From Pseudohongiella sp. (lineage in GTDB: Bacteria; Pseudomonadota; Gammaproteobacteria; Pseudomonadales; Pseudohongiellaceae): DNA of 64,000 nucleotides. Below, piece by piece: positions 22,694 to 42,751 of this stretch. The notes beneath the pieces are model-generated. The model worked only from the letters and a program-made list of their open reading frames with translations. It had not been told where the DNA came from and did not search any database. A program made the translations under genes and the position numbers. Every line of letters starts with the position of its first letter. The stretch's first letter is position 1. The stretch spans positions 62,001 through 126,000 of the forward strand of contig NZ_DRFV01000012.1 in assembly GCF_011050365.1 (NCBI RefSeq). The letters run 5' to 3'.

Positions 22694-25288
22694 ATGACGT
22701 CTGGCAAATTTATTGGTGTGCTCGTAATGGCGCTTTCTCTTATGTCCTGTCTTGCTTCCGGTAACAATAGCGCTGGCAACAATAGTTCCGGCAACAGCAG
22801 TGCTGCCAGTCCTGCCCCCGGTGTGGCACTGACACTGGCACAACGGCGTGCGGCCAGCATCAGCAACGTGGTTTATGATCTGCATTTTCGTGTGCCCGCC
22901 GATGTCAATGAGCCGGTGACAGGTACGCTGCTGGCCGTATTCGATTTGAGCGACGCGTCGCAGCCGTTGGTCATCGACTTCCGGGTACCCGCAGATCATG
23001 TTGTGGATGTCACCCTGAACGGTCAGCCAGTGACCTACCAGGTGACTAACGACCATATTGTGATTCCGGCCGCAGCGCTGGCACAGGGATCTCAGCAGCT
23101 GGGTGTTGAATTCACAAGTGCGGATACAGCGCTGAATCGTCGCAGTGATTTCATGTACGCCCTGTTTGTGCCCGATCGCGCCTCGACGGCTTTTCCGGTG
23201 TTTGAACAACCCGATATCAAGGCCCGCTATCGTCTGCAGTTGAGCATCCCGGCGAATTGGCGGGCACTGGCCAATGGTGCTGAGACCACGCGCCAGCCAG
23301 ATCCGGCACTGCCCGGCATGGATCTGATCGAATTTGCCGAAACCCTGGCCATCAGCTCTTATCTGTTTGCTTTTGCCGCCGGTGATCTGCAGGTCGAAAC
23401 CGCCCAACGTGGTGGTCGAACCTTTAACATGTATCACCGCGAAACTGACCCCGAGCGACTGGCGCGCAACCGCGATGCCATCTTTGATTTGCATGCGACG
23501 GCCATTGACTGGCTGGAAGACTACACGGCCATTGATTATCCATTTGGCAAGTTCGACTTTTTTGCCATACCGGCGTTTCAGTTTGGTGGCATGGAGCACC
23601 CGGGCGCCATCTGGTATCGTGCCGACACGTTGTTTCTTGATCCCAGCGCGTCACGCGCACAGGAGTTGAGCCGGGCCAGTCTGATTGCGCATGAAACGGC
23701 ACATATGTGGTTTGGCGATCTTGTGACCATGCGCTGGTTCAATGATGTCTGGATGAAGGAAGTCTTTGCCAATTTCATGGCAGCCAAGATTGCCGGTCCG
23801 GCATTCCCGGAGCTGGATCTGGACCTGCGTTTTTTTCAGGCACATCATCCCTCAGCCTACGCAGTTGACAGAACTGCAGGGGCCAATCCGATTCGCCAGC
23901 AGCTGGATAATCTGCGTGATGCCGGCTCGCTGTACGGTGCCATCATTTACCAGAAGGCGCCAATCGTAATGCAGCAACTGGAGACGCTGTTGGGGGAGGA
24001 CGTGTTGCGCGCCGGCCTGCGTCAATATCTGCAGCAGTTCGCCTTCGGCAACGCCGGTTGGCCGGATCTGATCAGCCTGCTGGATGCCATGAGTGCTGAG
24101 GACCTGACGGCCTGGAGTCGGGCGTGGGTGGATCAACCGGGACGTCCGCGCATTCAGGCACGCTGGCAGCAAGGTGGTATTACCGTGTCACAGAGCGATG
24201 ACGATACGGCGCGCAGCCTGCAGTGGCAGCAGCCGGTAGTGGTGGCAGTGGCAAGGGACGGACATGTTACGGAGCATGTGGCACAGCTTCGCCAACGCAG
24301 TGCGCGGGTGGAGGTGCCGGGTATTGTGCCGCCGGACTTTATTCTGGCCGGTGCCGATGGTGTCGGCTATGCCCGTTTCGAGCTCGATGAAAACAGTCGG
24401 CAGTTTTTACTCGGCTCTGTCCATGGGCTTGAGTCGGGTCTGCACCGGGCGGTTGTGTGGCAACACCTTTGGGAAGATGTGCTGGAGGACTCGCTGGCGC
24501 CAGCGGCCCTGTACGACGCTTTGCTGATTGCGGTGCAGCGTGAGCAGGACCCGTTGATTGCGCAACAGGTGCTGGGTCTGTTGCGCGGAGTCTGGTGGCG
24601 TTATCTGTCCGCTGCAGACCGGAGCGCGCGCGCAGACAATCTGGAGGCGACACTGTGGCAGGCGCTGGCGCGTGCTGATGGCGCTGGCCGAAAAGGGGCA
24701 TACTTCAATACCCTGGTGGATGTTACCGCAACAGAAACCGGTCTGGCAGAGCTTGCCGCGATCTGGGGCATGAGCCGTGACATTGAGGGATTGCCACTGC
24801 AGGAGCAGCAATATATCGATCTGGCTGAAACCCTTGCGCTCAGGGCAGTACCCGGGGCCGACAGTATTCTTGACGCGCAGCAGGCCCGGATCAGTAACCC
24901 GGACCGGCTGGACCGTTTCCAATTTGTGCGTCCGGCCCTGAGTCAGGATGCTGATCGCCGCGCCGAACTGTTCCTGTCATTTGCAAATCTGGAAAACCGA
25001 CGTCAGGAATCCTGGGTGCTGGATGCGACACGCCTGATCCATCATCCGCTGCGCGCGGGTAGCGCCCGGCCGCTGATCAGACCGGCACTGATGTTGCTGG
25101 AAGAGATTCAGCAGACCGGTGATATATTCTTTCCACTGCGCTGGCTGAATGCCACTCTGGACGGCCACAGCTCGCCAGAAGCAGCGGCGATTGTTCAGCA
25201 GTATCTGGATGAACGTACTGATATGCAGCCCAAGTTGCGAGCTAAACTCCTGCAGGCGTCCGACGGTCTGTTTCGGGCCGCCCGGTGA
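22694..25288 (+). CDS. M1-family aminopeptidase lipoprotein
   Basis: 864 residues. A lipoprotein signal ends LMSC, followed by an Asn/Ser/Gly-rich linker, so the enzyme is probably anchored outside the inner membrane. The M1 zinc site is HETAH (residues 333-337) with the third ligand Glu356 in WMKEVFANF. The exopeptidase motif is GGMEH (298-302) in place of the usual GAMEN. An N-terminal beta domain precedes the catalytic domain, and an ERAP/PepN-like helical C-terminal domain follows. It is likely to trim peptides taken from outside the cell. SD is weak but the signal fixes the start. Confidence 0.9.
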   Translation: MTSGKFIGVLVMALSLMSCLASGNNSAGNNSSGNSSAASPAPGVALTLAQRRAASISNVVYDLHFRVPADVNEPVTGTLLAVFDLSDASQPLVIDFRVPADHVVDVTLNGQPVTYQVTNDHIVIPAAALAQGSQQLGVEFTSADTALNRRSDFMYALFVPDRASTAFPVFEQPDIKARYRLQLSIPANWRALANGAETTRQPDPALPGMDLIEFAETLAISSYLFAFAAGDLQVETAQRGGRTFNMYHRETDPERLARNRDAIFDLHATAIDWLEDYTAIDYPFGKFDFFAIPAFQFGGMEHPGAIWYRADTLFLDPSASRAQELSRASLIAHETAHMWFGDLVTMRWFNDVWMKEVFANFMAAKIAGPAFPELDLDLRFFQAHHPSAYAVDRTAGANPIRQQLDNLRDAGSLYGAIIYQKAPIVMQQLETLLGEDVLRAGLRQYLQQFAFGNAGWPDLISLLDAMSAEDLTAWSRAWVDQPGRPRIQARWQQGGITVSQSDDDTARSLQWQQPVVVAVARDGHVTEHVAQLRQRSARVEVPGIVPPDFILAGADGVGYARFELDENSRQFLLGSVHGLESGLHRAVVWQHLWEDVLEDSLAPAALYDALLIAVQREQDPLIAQQVLGLLRGVWWRYLSAADRSARADNLEATLWQALARADGAGRKGAYFNTLVDVTATETGLAELAAIWGMSRDIEGLPLQEQQYIDLAETLALRAVPGADSILDAQQARISNPDRLDRFQFVRPALSQDADRRAELFLSFANLENRRQESWVLDATRLIHHPLRAGSARPLIRPALMLLEEIQQTGDIFFPLRWLNATLDGHSSPEAAAIVQQYLDERTDMQPKLRAKLLQASDGLFRAAR

Positions 25289-25295
25289 TACCCGG

Positions 25296-26528
25296 TCAGA
25301 GGTTGCCAAGTACCTGAATAATAGTTCGTGAACCCAGTGCCACCGTTACCGTCAGAATGATGATGCCCAGCAGATTGTTCAGAGGGGTATTTTTGTGGGC
25401 ACCCAGCACGGAGCTGCGGTTCATGATCCACAGTACGATGGCCACCACCACGGGCAGGGTCAGGCCATTGGCAACCTGGGCGAAACGGATGATCTCGATG
25501 GGATTGATGCCAAGCGACGAGAAGGTAATGCCGGTGGCCAGAATCAGCATCCACACCAGACGAAAACCAGCGTGTTTCAGATCTGCCGGCCATCCCATGC
25601 AGCCACGCACAACATAGGCGGCCGCCAGCGGGGCGGTAATGGCGGAGGTGATGCCGGCAGCAAACAGGCCCAGACTGAGAAAGTATTTGGCAAAATTGCC
25701 AAACAGCGGCTCCAGGCCAAGTGCCAGGTCGGCTGCATTGCGAATGCCCGATGTATTGACCGCCGCCGCGCATACTATGATGGCCATGGAAACCAGTCCG
25801 CCGACGCTGATCGCAATGAAGGTGTCGCGCCGTGCATGTGGCAAAGCGTCCACGCTACGCCATTTTTCGCTGACCAGTGAGGCATGCAGGAACAGATTAT
25901 AGGGGACAACCGTGGTGCCGATCAGCCCCAGTATGGTCAGCAGATTGGCATCGTTGAGCGAGGGCGCCAGCAGGCCCTGCAGTAGCGCGCCCATGTCCGG
26001 CCGGGTCAACACCGCGGCGAGCACAAAGGCCAGACTCATCAGGATCACCATGGCAATCAGGGCGCGTTCCAGCACCTTGTAGCTACCCACAAATAACAGA
26101 CCGAAGGCGATAGCGCCGATGAGCAGACTGAGCCAGCGTGCGCCCGATGCCGGCTCGATGCCGAGCAGGGTTTCCAGCCCCAGTCGCCCGCCGCTGATAT
26201 TGCCCGCTTCATAGGCAGCATTGCCGATAACAATGGCACTGACGATCATCAGTAATACAATAAATCGGACAAGAGGCTGATGATGGAGCTGGCTGCGAAT
26301 GACATCGGTGAGACCACGGCCGGTGACAATGCCGATACGAGCAGACATTTCCTGCAAGACCATGGTCGCAAGTACCGACAGCAGCATGACCCATAACAGG
26401 TCATAGCCGAATTCGACACCGGCCAGCGTGCACACGGTAACGGTGCCCGGTCCAATAAATGCGGCTGCCACCAACGCGCCCGGGCCACTGTTGTTGTACC
26501 AGGCGCGGGCGTTGGCGGCGTCACTCAT
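25296..26528 (-). CDS. Nramp-fold transporter with altered metal-binding motifs
   Basis: 410 residues with about eleven membrane helices of the Nramp (SLC11/MntH) fold. In canonical members helix 1 carries DPGN and helix 6 carries MPH. Here the matching segments are GPGT (residues 26-29, after SGPGALVAAAFI) and VPYN (208-211, in GTTVVPYNLFLH). The ligand Asp, Asn, Met and the nearby His are therefore all changed. The protein may carry another cation such as Mg2+, as known for Nramp-related magnesium transporters, or something else. Its start overlaps the stop of the methyltransferase gene by 8 bases, so they form an operon. Confidence 0.8.
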   Translation of the reverse strand: MSDAANARAWYNNSGPGALVAAAFIGPGTVTVCTLAGVEFGYDLLWVMLLSVLATMVLQEMSARIGIVTGRGLTDVIRSQLHHQPLVRFIVLLMIVSAIVIGNAAYEAGNISGGRLGLETLLGIEPASGARWLSLLIGAIAFGLLFVGSYKVLERALIAMVILMSLAFVLAAVLTRPDMGALLQGLLAPSLNDANLLTILGLIGTTVVPYNLFLHASLVSEKWRSVDALPHARRDTFIAISVGGLVSMAIIVCAAAVNTSGIRNAADLALGLEPLFGNFAKYFLSLGLFAAGITSAITAPLAAAYVVRGCMGWPADLKHAGFRLVWMLILATGITFSSLGINPIEIIRFAQVANGLTLPVVVAIVLWIMNRSSVLGAHKNTPLNNLLGIIILTVTVALGSRTIIQVLGNL

Positions 26529-27219
26529 GGCTTGTGTGGTCCGGCGTTACAGTCGCGCCGCTGGAGACTGTGCGTTTTTGCAGAAGCACACTCAAATTGT
26601 TGGCGGGCATGGTCACTACATCCAGCAGCTTGAGGTGGTGCGCTGCCGCCAGTGTGCAGACATCATCCAGGTCGCGTATCCCCCATTGCGGGTTACGTGA
26701 TCGCAAGTCTGCATCAAACAGGGCGTTGCTTTGTGCTGTGTGTTGACCCTTGCGCTGGTAGGGGCCATACAGGTACAACAGGCCGCCTTCGCTCAGCAGG
26801 GTTTCAGCCGTTTGCATCAGGCCCCGGGTGGCTTGCCAGGGACTGATATGAATCATGTTGATACACACAATAGCGTCCAACAGTGCTGGCCCGGAACCGG
26901 CATCGGTCAGCACGGTGATATTTTCCGTCACCGGGCGACTGACATCAAACATCAGTGCCGGCTGCAGGACCGATGCATCTGCCTCGTCACGCCAGGCATT
27001 GATACTGTCGATAGCATCGGCGTTAATATCGCTTGGCCACCATCGTGATGCTGCCAGCAGTGTGCTCAGATACACCGCGTGTTCTCCGGTTCCGGCAGCG
27101 ATTTCCAGCACCCGGCTGTTGGCGGCCAGGTATGTTTGCAATACCTGGCCGATGGCTTCGCGGTTGCGCAGCGAGCTGGGGCTGCTGCGGCGGGCGTCAT
27201 CGCTGGCGTGTGTGCTCAA
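26521..27219 (-). CDS. DUF938-family SAM-dependent methyltransferase
   Basis: 232 residues starting at a TTG (AGGGAA upstream; no in-frame ATG near). The sequence begins with a SSPSSLRNREAIGQVL helix, then the class I methyltransferase motif I VLEIAAGTGEHAVYLS, with motif IV at DAIVCINMIHISPWQ and the DUF938 signature YGPYQRKGQHTAQSNALFD. Substrate is unknown. It lies 18 bases after the MAPEG gene and overlaps the Nramp-like gene by 8, and is probably co-expressed with both. Confidence 0.85.
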   Translation of the reverse strand: MSTHASDDARRSSPSSLRNREAIGQVLQTYLAANSRVLEIAAGTGEHAVYLSTLLAASRWWPSDINADAIDSINAWRDEADASVLQPALMFDVSRPVTENITVLTDAGSGPALLDAIVCINMIHISPWQATRGLMQTAETLLSEGGLLYLYGPYQRKGQHTAQSNALFDADLRSRNPQWGIRDLDDVCTLAAAHHLKLLDVVTMPANNLSVLLQKRTVSSGATVTPDHTSHE

Positions 27220-27237: not shown

Positions 27238-27621
27238 TTAGCGCAAACTCAATGCGGCGCCGATCAGCGCGCCGAGCGCCAATGCCAGGGACGGCAACAT
27301 GGTCAGGGCAAAACCCAGGCCGCGTGATTTGGGGTCTTTGACATATGCGCGCAGGTACAGATAACGGCCGATAATGAAGACCACGCCCAGCGCGGCGGCA
27401 ATCTCGGCATTGACATAGGTAGCAAACAAAAAGATCGAGGGCAGAAACAGCACCAGACTTTCCTGTGTGTTCATATGGACGCGATAATAACGTTCAAAAA
27501 CAGGATCGCCGGTGACCGCTGGTGCTTCTATCTTATAGGTGCCGCGTGCCTTGCCAACCAGAATGCCAAATACCATATATTGCAATAACGCCAGTACAAC
27601 AACGATTGTAACCAGTTCCAT
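27238..27621 (-). CDS. MAPEG-family membrane protein
   Basis: 127 residues with four hydrophobic segments. The stretch FERYYRVHMNTQESLVLFLP is the hallmark of the MAPEG family (membrane-associated eicosanoid and glutathione metabolism proteins), with YLRAYVKDPKSRGLGFALT near the third and fourth helices. Bacterial members are often glutathione transferases or peroxidases, but the activity here is unknown. AGGAG lies 9 bases before the ATG. It follows the HAD phosphatase gene by 80 bases. Confidence 0.85.
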   Translation of the reverse strand: MELVTIVVVLALLQYMVFGILVGKARGTYKIEAPAVTGDPVFERYYRVHMNTQESLVLFLPSIFLFATYVNAEIAAALGVVFIIGRYLYLRAYVKDPKSRGLGFALTMLPSLALALGALIGAALSLR

Positions 27622-27701: not shown

Positions 27702-28523
27702 TCACAGATTAAAGCGCCCTCGCAGGTAATGTGCAATACCATCGTCATTGTTGTGACCGATGACGGCGGTTGCTTCCGCCTTGACATAATCCTTGGCGTT
27801 GTCAGGGGCATAACTTTCGTCGGCGACCCGGAACATACTCAGGTCGTTGTCGCTGTCACCAAAACAGATCAGGCTGCTGATGTTCAATTGCTGGCGCAGC
27901 AGAGTGAGGGCATCGCCCTTGCTGGCGCTGCTGTGATGAAAATCCACCCATTTCAGGTCCTTGCTTTCCATGGCAACGCCCGAGTATGAGACCAGATGAT
28001 CTTCGTTTGCCAGGTTTTCCCTGATGGCGTCGATGCCGGCAGCACTGCCCAGCATGCTGATATTGGTAATACGGGCATCGGCGGGCAGGTCGGTTAATGG
28101 CCGGATTTGCGCGCCGCCGCGACTGCGAACCACGTCCAGCAGCTTTTTTTCTACGGTGTTCAGTGACGAGGGATGAAACACGTAGTGTTGCTTGTCCTCG
28201 GTCACGGTATTGACCCAGGGGCTGATCTCTTCGTTCAGTGCTGCGCGCAGGACATGCGTGGCTTCAGAAACCGTCAGGTAATTGTTCAGTGACAGGGTCT
28301 CCACGCGGGGGTCCCAGATGACGGTGCCGTTGGTGTACACATGGGGCAGCACAAAACCGTGATCAGCAATGATCTGCTGACCGGAGTGCAGGTTGCGTCC
28401 GGTTGCCACCGTATATGCGACCCCGCTTTGCGTCAGTCGAGTGAGAGTTTCGCGGGTGAACACGGAAATTTTTGAGGCATCATTGAGCAAGGTGCCGTCG
28501 AGATCAAAAACAACAAGTTCCAT
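27702..28523 (-). CDS. HAD-superfamily hydrolase, Cof type
   Basis: 273 residues. The N-terminal DxD motif VVFDLDGTLLND, a C2-type cap domain in residues about 85-185, and the late acidic motif CFGDSDNDLSMF mark a Cof-type HAD phosphatase (IIB). Likely substrates are sugar phosphates or flavin or nucleotide phosphates; none is assignable. Residues about 185-200 (KWVDFHHSSASKGDAL) contain the conserved lysine. It is probably the first gene of the minus-strand run that ends in the Nramp-like transporter. Confidence 0.85.
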   Translation of the reverse strand: MELVVFDLDGTLLNDASKISVFTRETLTRLTQSGVAYTVATGRNLHSGQQIIADHGFVLPHVYTNGTVIWDPRVETLSLNNYLTVSEATHVLRAALNEEISPWVNTVTEDKQHYVFHPSSLNTVEKKLLDVVRSRGGAQIRPLTDLPADARITNISMLGSAAGIDAIRENLANEDHLVSYSGVAMESKDLKWVDFHHSSASKGDALTLLRQQLNISSLICFGDSDNDLSMFRVADESYAPDNAKDYVKAEATAVIGHNNDDGIAHYLRGRFNL

Positions 28524-42528: not shown

Positions 42529-42710
42529 ATGGGGTCGAAGGGTCGAGCTTTATGGTACCGGAGGCCGGACTTGAACCGGCACGCTATCTCTAGCACCGCT
42601 GATTTTATGAAACAGGTGAATCCGGCGTGTTATTTTCGTAATGGGGTCGAAGGGTCGAGCTTTATGGTACCGGAGGCCGGACTTGAACCGGCACGCTATC
42701 ACTAGCACCG
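42529..42710. repeat. 70-base direct repeat including 3' part of tRNA-Leu
   Basis: The 70 bases at 42529-42598 recur at 42641-42710 with a single mismatch, at a spacing of 112. The second copy is the 3' part of the functional tRNA plus 24 flanking bases; the first ends a decayed tRNA remnant. Either a tandem tRNA duplication has decayed or an att-like repeat remains after loss of an integrated element. No integrase or phage gene remains between them. Confidence 0.85.
42553..42630 (-). pseudogene. Decayed tRNA-Leu copy
   Basis: Read on the minus strand it ends with the same acceptor, T-arm and variable-arm sequence as the functional tRNA-Leu and ends in CCA. Toward the 5' side two bases are inserted (42599-42600), then 11 bases (42607-42617) split the anticodon loop, and beyond 42630 the D-arm is replaced by unrelated bases. 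It cannot fold as a tRNA. Confidence 0.75.
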
Positions 42711-42751
42711 GATTTTGAATCCGGCGTGTCTACCAATTTCACCACTCCGGC
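42665..42751 (-). tRNA. tRNA-Leu (anticodon CAA)
   Basis: 87 bases, CCA encoded. The acceptor stem pairs GCCGGAG with CTCCGGT, the D-arm contains GGTAGACAC, the anticodon stem CCGGA/TCCGG encloses TTCAAAA so the anticodon is CAA (reads UUG). A long variable arm and the T loop GGTTCAAGTCC are present, as expected for leucine tRNA. A good promoter is found 29 bases upstream. Confidence 0.97.

Follow-up and report, generated by a model that had tools for sequence, protein, structure and literature searches.

The window, by which we mean the whole 64,000-nucleotide stretch of DNA that was analyzed, encodes on its minus strand an Nramp-related transporter of 410 amino acids (positions 25296 to 26528). 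The open reading frame starts with ATG, and its 410 codons contain no internal stop. The product matched the Pfam Nramp model PF01566 with an E value of 3.6e-89 and a score of 299.8 bits (gathering cutoff, 29.8), which places it in the superfamily. It also passed the cutoff of the broad model Nramp_1 ("Nramp family divalent metal transporter") and fell below those of the MntH (Mn/Fe) models NF001923 (167 versus 430 bits) and TIGR01197 (99.3 versus 272.5 bits); a PHROGs search matched nothing. The AlphaFold2 model, which was built from 40 sequences (mean pLDDT, 85; pTM, 0.85), has the broken helices of a LeuT-type fold, with breaks at residues 25 and 26 in TM1 and at residue 208 in TM6. Its top structural match was DraNramp (6c3i_B; VIA Z 48.9, rmsd 2.3 over 376 residues). 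EleNRMT was nearly as good (Z 46.5), amino-acid transporters of the APC superfamily were weaker (Z about 27 to 30), and the YcsG chain 9a52 was among the Foldseek matches. Both the Pfam match and the match to DraNramp bear out the Nramp fold that had been predicted for this gene.

Three genes on the same strand precede the transporter gene. The start of the transporter overlaps by 8 bp a gene for a DUF938 methyltransferase with a TTG start (26521 to 27219; PF06080, E = 9.8e-68); a MAPEG family membrane protein is encoded 18 bp upstream of the methyltransferase (27238 to 27621; PF01124, E = 8.4e-22), and a HAD-IIB/Cof-type phosphatase is encoded 80 bp beyond MAPEG (27702 to 28523; PF08282, E = 8.1e-43; TIGR01484 above its cutoff). 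On the plus strand, a gene for an M1-family aminopeptidase (22694 to 25288; PF01433) converges on the transporter gene. An amidohydrolase and a DUF885 protein are also encoded in the neighborhood. The original prediction described the methyltransferase, MAPEG, and HAD genes correctly, but they are not the telling context, since all three were recognized in only four of the nine genus genomes examined (the window's, G012, G003, and G009), with MAPEG and HAD alone in G007, and the widespread partners of the clade are 5-oxoprolinases. For the same reason, the three proteins are weak candidates for functional partners. The M1 peptidase gene adjoins the transporter gene in eight of these nine genomes and lies one open reading frame away in the ninth (G009); it is also beside the transporter in L189, from another genus of the family. 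Between positions 25100 and 28800, four promoter-like sites (2.5 expected) and seven terminator-like sites (3.0 expected) were found, one of the latter lying close to where the MAPEG gene ends, on the minus strand; we give these counts no weight. The sole Rfam match at the gathering threshold in the window was a tRNA gene (42668 to 42751, minus strand).

The putative substrate site and its conservation

In alignments made with phmmer, MAFFT, and hhalign, the TM1 segment of the transporter, AAFIGPGTVTVCT, carries G26-P27-G28-T29 (26442 to 26453) where canonical proteins have DPGN. The TM6 segment, GTTVVPYNLFLH, carries T205-T206-V207-V208-P209-Y210 (25899 to 25916) where canonical proteins have A-T-x-M-P-H, so that V208-P209-Y210 occupies the MPH position. 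Both replacements had been predicted, and with the TM1 and TM6 metal ligands replaced, it also holds that the canonical Mn/Fe site cannot form. The further claim that all canonical ligands are gone is correct for these TM1 and TM6 metal ligands but not for H215, the second histidine of TM6 and the last residue of NLFLH, which is still present. The TM3 signature, N103..Y106-E107..G109-N110, lies at positions 26199 to 26222. The three alignments place N110 at the conserved glutamate, whereas the substitutions listed by Cellier imply a register with E107 there; because of this disagreement, the TM3 assignment is tentative.

Conservation was counted in 113 of the 154 recovered proteins (above 400 bits and longer than 300 amino acids), which represent 110 distinct sequences from both bacteria and archaea and cover the close clade, exclusive of the more distant Bacteroidota members. 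G26, P27, and G28 occur unchanged in 109 of the 110 sequences and T29 in 108, and Y106, N110, E154, G204, T205, T206, V208, Y210, H215, and S295 are present in all 110. Position 107 is glutamate in 104 sequences and glutamine in 6. Position 209 is glycine in 8 of the 110; the haloarchaeal proteins L143, L144, and L176, for example, have VGY instead of VPY in TM6. Since this alternative site is near-invariant among the relatives, it represents a different conserved site and not decay; a degenerate gene is ruled out by the intact frame together with that conservation. In the more distant Bacteroidota members, GPGT, N110, T205, T206, and Y210 are kept in all seven aligned rows (which include L225 and L229, two loci without an established HyuAB linkage); in these rows, glycine replaces H215 in seven, phenylalanine replaces Y106 in four, and glutamine replaces E107 in two. 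The aligned members L223, L224, L226, and L227, which are paired with HyuA/HyuB, read PYN(L/I)FLG in TM6, with glycine at the conserved histidine.

Phylogenetic placement

A maximum-likelihood tree of 46 rows, rooted at the midpoint, grouped the GPGT proteins in one clade (support 97/95) beside the NRMTs plus the canonical Nramps (93/90), with the three groups joined at 95/92. The canonical Nramps formed a clade of their own (100/100) with the transporter outside it. The PxpA-linked Nramps, which have GPGF in TM1, form another clade (100/100) that branches farther out (84/64) on a long branch; the transporter is set apart from it and is therefore not of the PxpT/YcsG type. The tree program flagged EleNRMT, BfraNramp, and three others as long branches of unsure place. 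An Nramp tree had been proposed as the check on the original prediction, and it puts the transporter outside the known Mn/Fe and Mg clades. It does not favor the view that the ligands were lost: because the GPGT clade branches outside the canonical Nramps and NRMTs, the metal ligands were probably never present, a parsimony argument that depends on the root.

The window's genome is 99% complete and encodes three PF01566 proteins, none of which is a canonical MntH. The two besides the transporter, which are encoded on contigs 8 and 10 (L147:7080-8510 and L148:7328-8641), have GTGS and GASH in TM1 and are likewise without canonical ligands. The genome also encodes one ZnuA-type binding protein.

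Linkage to two 5-oxoprolinase systems

The loci of the closest relatives in GTDB genomes, mostly Flavobacteriaceae, were taken as the best 80 of at least 592 confirmed stretches, with flanks of up to 10 kb. In 72 of these best 80 loci (of at least 592), the transporter gene is followed directly by pxpA (LamB/YcsF) in the same orientation, and pxpB and pxpC come at the second and third positions in 69 loci each; the identities of PxpA, PxpB, and PxpC were confirmed by Pfam in one representative per family. The spacing from the last sense codon of the transporter to the first possible start of pxpA is at most 60 bp in 67 of the 72 loci (median, 3). The flanks lack pxp genes in five of the best 80 loci (of at least 592). 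For L115, L118, and L130, pxpA is present elsewhere in the genome, and the other two (L063 and L068) belong to the window's genus, judging from the gene layout that they share with G014 and G011. A DUF2891 family gene (PF11199 in the representative; e.g., L073:8881-9999) lies upstream of the transporter in 57 of the best 80 loci (of at least 592) and adjoins it in 54; overlap with the transporter start is frequent. The DUF2891 protein is a candidate for a further partner in 5-oxoproline use.

Genome samples gave a similar picture. Among 148 evenly drawn Bacteroidota genomes, pxpA was present in all 24 that carry a homologue of at least 46% identity, versus 10 of the 124 others (Fisher 5e-20, uncorrected for kinship). 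In 20 of the 24, no more than 100 bp separate it from the transporter gene; in one the distance is 1.2 kb, and in three it is distant or on a different contig. The GPGT clade is rare in the window's phylum, where 8 of 299 proteobacterial genomes have a homologue of at least 42% identity. Seven of these eight have pxpA, compared with 85 of the other 291 (Fisher 0.0013), and in six of the seven, including the window's genome, the two genes are far apart; they are adjacent only in G128. As a control, we took 132 Nramp matches from the proteobacterial sample, with pxpA positions from those genomes that have an Nramp match. Six matches lie within 6 kb of pxpA, namely, one GPGT protein and five of the GPGF group (24 to 26% identity and 316 to 383 bits against a GPGF protein, with a readable GPGF motif in four); none of the six is canonical. 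Among eight plasmid regions with pxpA, an annotated Nramp gene adjoins pxpA in one, and TRAP genes were seen in another. No Nramp was recognized with the GPGT hidden Markov model within 6 kb of pxpA in Acinetobacter baumannii. The surroundings of the deeper GPGS homologue (L042/L218), which include GST, GGDEF, OmpW, and sodium:solute symporter genes, showed no pattern.

The window's genome carries a complete pxpB-pxpC-pxpA operon on contig 17, and no transporter gene was recognized directly beside it. The same kind of neighbors flanks pxpBCA in five more genomes of the genus, so that six have the full set. All 15 genomes of the genus have pxpA and 12 have the transporter, which leaves three with pxpA and no homologue. 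Given the separate contigs and these three genomes, the link between the transporter and pxp is in trans in the window's genome and is not obligate; direct 5-oxoprolinase linkage characterizes most of the clade members examined, but not the window's copy. In G008 and G010 (L202 and L203), two of the three genus genomes without the transporter, the third gene upstream of pxpB is an open reading frame of 372 to 373 amino acids with about six predicted transmembrane segments.

Other members of the clade are paired with HyuA/HyuB, a hydantoinase-oxoprolinase. On haloarchaeal plasmids (8 loci examined of 15 listed, from 599 plasmid records), HyuA follows the transporter in all eight; since one of these HyuA genes crosses the start of the record, it was identified by visual inspection of the DNA. 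An Amdase/racemase-family gene adjoins HyuB in one haloarchaeal cluster, and a CopG/ribbon-helix-helix gene lies just upstream of the transporter in seven of the eight loci (L143, L144, and L171 to L176). The haloarchaeal records label these GPGT members divalent metal transporters, names that are probably misnomers. The proteobacterium G140 lacks PxpA and has a fused HyuAB of 1216 residues, the end of which overlaps the start of the transporter gene. Ten further genomes among the 148 Bacteroidota have a homologue of 37 to 44% identity; HyuA or fused HyuAB is adjacent on the same strand in seven of them, after the transporter in six and before it in L223. The pairing in this subclade (L221, L222, L223, L224, L226, L227, and L230) is thus with HyuA/HyuB and not with PxpABC. 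The eighth of the ten has a fused HyuAB 1.4 kb from the transporter gene, the two being separated by an open reading frame in the opposite orientation, and in G384 and G418 neither HyuA nor HyuAB was present in the stretch around the homologue; G418 is the only one of the ten with pxpA. The HyuAB of L178 gave its best scores to caprolactamase models, below their cutoffs.

Substrate, rival readings, and relation to known systems

PxpABC and HyuAB are unrelated enzymes, and 5-oxoproline is their best-known common substrate; some members of the LamB/YcsF and HyuAB families, however, act on different compounds. When a clade pairs with either of two unrelated enzymes that share a substrate, the simplest reading is that it transports this substrate, and because of the double linkage a lactam carrier is the favored explanation. 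Based on sequence and gene context, we consider it fairly probable that the transporter carries 5-oxoproline (pyroglutamate), or a small lactam much like it, rather than a metal. The protein would be a secondary transporter of the inner membrane, with the LeuT/Nramp fold, that imports the lactam for an ATP-dependent 5-oxoprolinase: PxpABC in most relatives, HyuAB in others, and, in the window's genome, the PxpABC encoded elsewhere. In amino-acid carriers of the APC superfamily, the carboxylate of the substrate is bound at the G-x-G motif of TM1. The lactam may occupy the space between the helix breaks of TM1 and TM6, where the backbone amides of GPGT and side chains such as those of T205, T206, Y210, Y106, and N110 would bind it, and inward transport would presumably proceed by alternating access and be ion driven.

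Experiments on other Nramp-family proteins are reported that bear on this proposal. In Corynebacterium glutamicum, pxpT, which encodes another member of the family, is required for growth on 5-oxoproline; PxpT is 50% identical to Bacillus subtilis YcsG, the loss of which is said to prevent 5-oxoproline use too (PMC13274462). Mutation of the TM1 aspartate strongly impairs transport by EleNRMT (PMC8806188) and by BfraNramp (PMC12873925); this residue, which is essential or nearly so in metal Nramps, is glycine in the transporter. Several observations count against the lactam reading. The window's transporter gene is not beside pxp and has unrelated neighbors; three of the 15 genus genomes have pxpA without the transporter; the two genes are far apart in six of the seven proteobacterial genomes that have both; the LamB/YcsF and HyuAB families are not confined to 5-oxoproline; proteins of a related branch have published Mn phenotypes; and E107, which is glutamate in most relatives, could help to bind a cation.

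It is unlikely, though less so than the other rivals, that the protein is still a divalent metal importer, in which Mn2+ or hydrated Mg2+ would be bound at a noncanonical site formed by E107 together with hydroxyl groups and backbone carbonyls, and the metal would supply the ATP-dependent 5-oxoprolinase and other enzymes. Published Mn-accumulation phenotypes speak for it. YcsG/MntG of B. subtilis is reported as a Mn importer, since its overexpression raises cellular Mn and MntR binds its promoter (PMC10448178); MumT of A. baumannii is likewise reported as a Mn importer, since its deletion lowers cellular Mn (PMC5050338); and the NrmT of A. capsulatum rescues a Mn-transport defect (PMC4072509). 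The genes for YcsG/MntG and MumT are both in pxp-like operons, and the lack of a canonical MntH among the three PF01566 proteins of the window's genome and the frequency of glutamate at position 107 also agree with metal import. YcsG/MntG and MumT appear, however, to belong to the GPGF branch, on the grounds of operon context and one match: an Acinetobacter protein is 43.8% identical to the Nramp of L163, which suggests that MumT is of the GPGF type. They would therefore have no direct bearing on the GPGT proteins, yet they keep the metal rival alive. Against it stand the absence of the TM1 aspartate and of the TM6 methionine and histidine, the asparagine at the TM3 glutamate in three alignments, and the glutamine at position 107 in some relatives. 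Furthermore, no metal riboswitch was detected at the gathering threshold in the window, including the magnesium (M-box) type found with part of the NRMT group, or in the loci of ten relatives (three flavobacterial and seven haloarchaeal). The gene linkage is to two unrelated enzymes that share a substrate, and canonical Nramps were absent from the six matches near pxpA.

Less likely still is another small organic solute, such as hydantoins, other lactams, or amino acids resembling proline or glutamate, with 5-oxoproline as at most a side substrate. Several lactams and hydantoins are substrates of the HyuAB families, an Amdase/racemase-family gene accompanies HyuB in a haloarchaeal cluster, and the M1 peptidase, DUF885 protein, and amidohydrolase beside the window's transporter would suit such a role; against it, the substrate best known to be common to PxpABC and HyuAB is 5-oxoproline itself, and the pxpT deletion strain cannot grow on that compound (PMC13274462). 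That the protein is a degenerate, nontransporting Nramp, or only a regulator or sensor, is very improbable: every canonical TM1 and TM6 ligand is absent, but the near-invariant alternative site in 110 proteins and the conserved operons indicate selection on function, and the reading frame is intact and the predicted fold complete.

In the midpoint-rooted tree, the GPGT clade is sister to the metal-carrying Nramps as a whole, and its substrate therefore bears on how an amino-acid fold came to carry metals. It is possible, although on balance doubtful, that the metal Nramps, both canonical proteins and NRMTs, arose inside a radiation of lactam/5-oxoproline transporters. This reading draws on the GPGF and GPGT groups, which are successive outer branches, both found in 5-oxoprolinase operons, and which share the TM1 glycine and the TM3 asparagine. 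If it is true, changes to the TM1 aspartate and the TM3 glutamate would have switched the cargo of a carrier from 5-oxoproline to divalent metals. The question becomes testable across GPGT, GPGF, NRMT, and canonical proteins, and the answer could help to settle the conflict over whether YcsG/PxpT imports 5-oxoproline or Mn.

Among known systems, canonical Nramp/MntH proteins (DraNramp, BfraNramp, and DMT1) share their fold with the transporter, which differs from them in lacking DPGN and MPH and in falling below the MntH cutoffs. NRMTs (EleNRMT and CaNrmT) have in common with it GTT in TM6, IGN in TM3, and NGLxLP in TM10, but they form a separate clade and retain the TM1 aspartate, and EleNRMT also has the TM3 glutamate (PMC8806188); in the transporter, G26 stands at the aspartate position and N110 at the glutamate position in the three alignments, with the register in dispute.

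PxpT of C. glutamicum and YcsG (MntG) of B. subtilis are, like most of the transporter's relatives, Nramp-family proteins from 5-oxoprolinase operons, and we take both to be probable members of the GPGF clade, an assumption based on operon context. The PxpA-linked Nramps read here resemble the transporter in having GPG in TM1 and GN in TM3 and differ in having GPGF in TM1, GGTVGGY in TM6, and a separate clade; they scored 76 bits against the hidden Markov model of the GPGT clade in the case compared, and a search of the sequences of solved structures with a PxpA-linked Nramp as the query gave no match at 0.001.

A published counterpart is the orphan Slc11 outgroup without metal ligands described by Cellier in 2022 and 2023. 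The in silico reversions given there (h1 D to G and N to T; h3 A to Y and G to N; h6 A to T, M to V, and H to Y; PMC10606218) correspond to G26, T29, Y106, N110, T205, V208, and Y210 of the transporter. In the rooted tree of a 2026 preprint by Ray, Berry, and Gaudet, the Nramp-related proteins, likewise without the ligands, form a paraphyletic assemblage with respect to the canonical Nramps, and the preprint terms the "G-motif" groups other than the NRMT-like one and that of MntG uncharacterized. The transporter carries the same residue set and has the same paraphyletic place outside the canonical Nramps. The consulted portions of Cellier's papers and of the preprint make no mention of PxpABC or HyuAB linkage for these groups, and in the open-access literature we found neither a report linking the GPGT clade to 5-oxoprolinase genes nor a GPGT protein with a transport assay. 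In conclusion, the transporter matches an outgroup that has already been described, a kind that is known but uncharacterized; the new element is the strong linkage of the GPGT clade to two unrelated 5-oxoprolinase systems.
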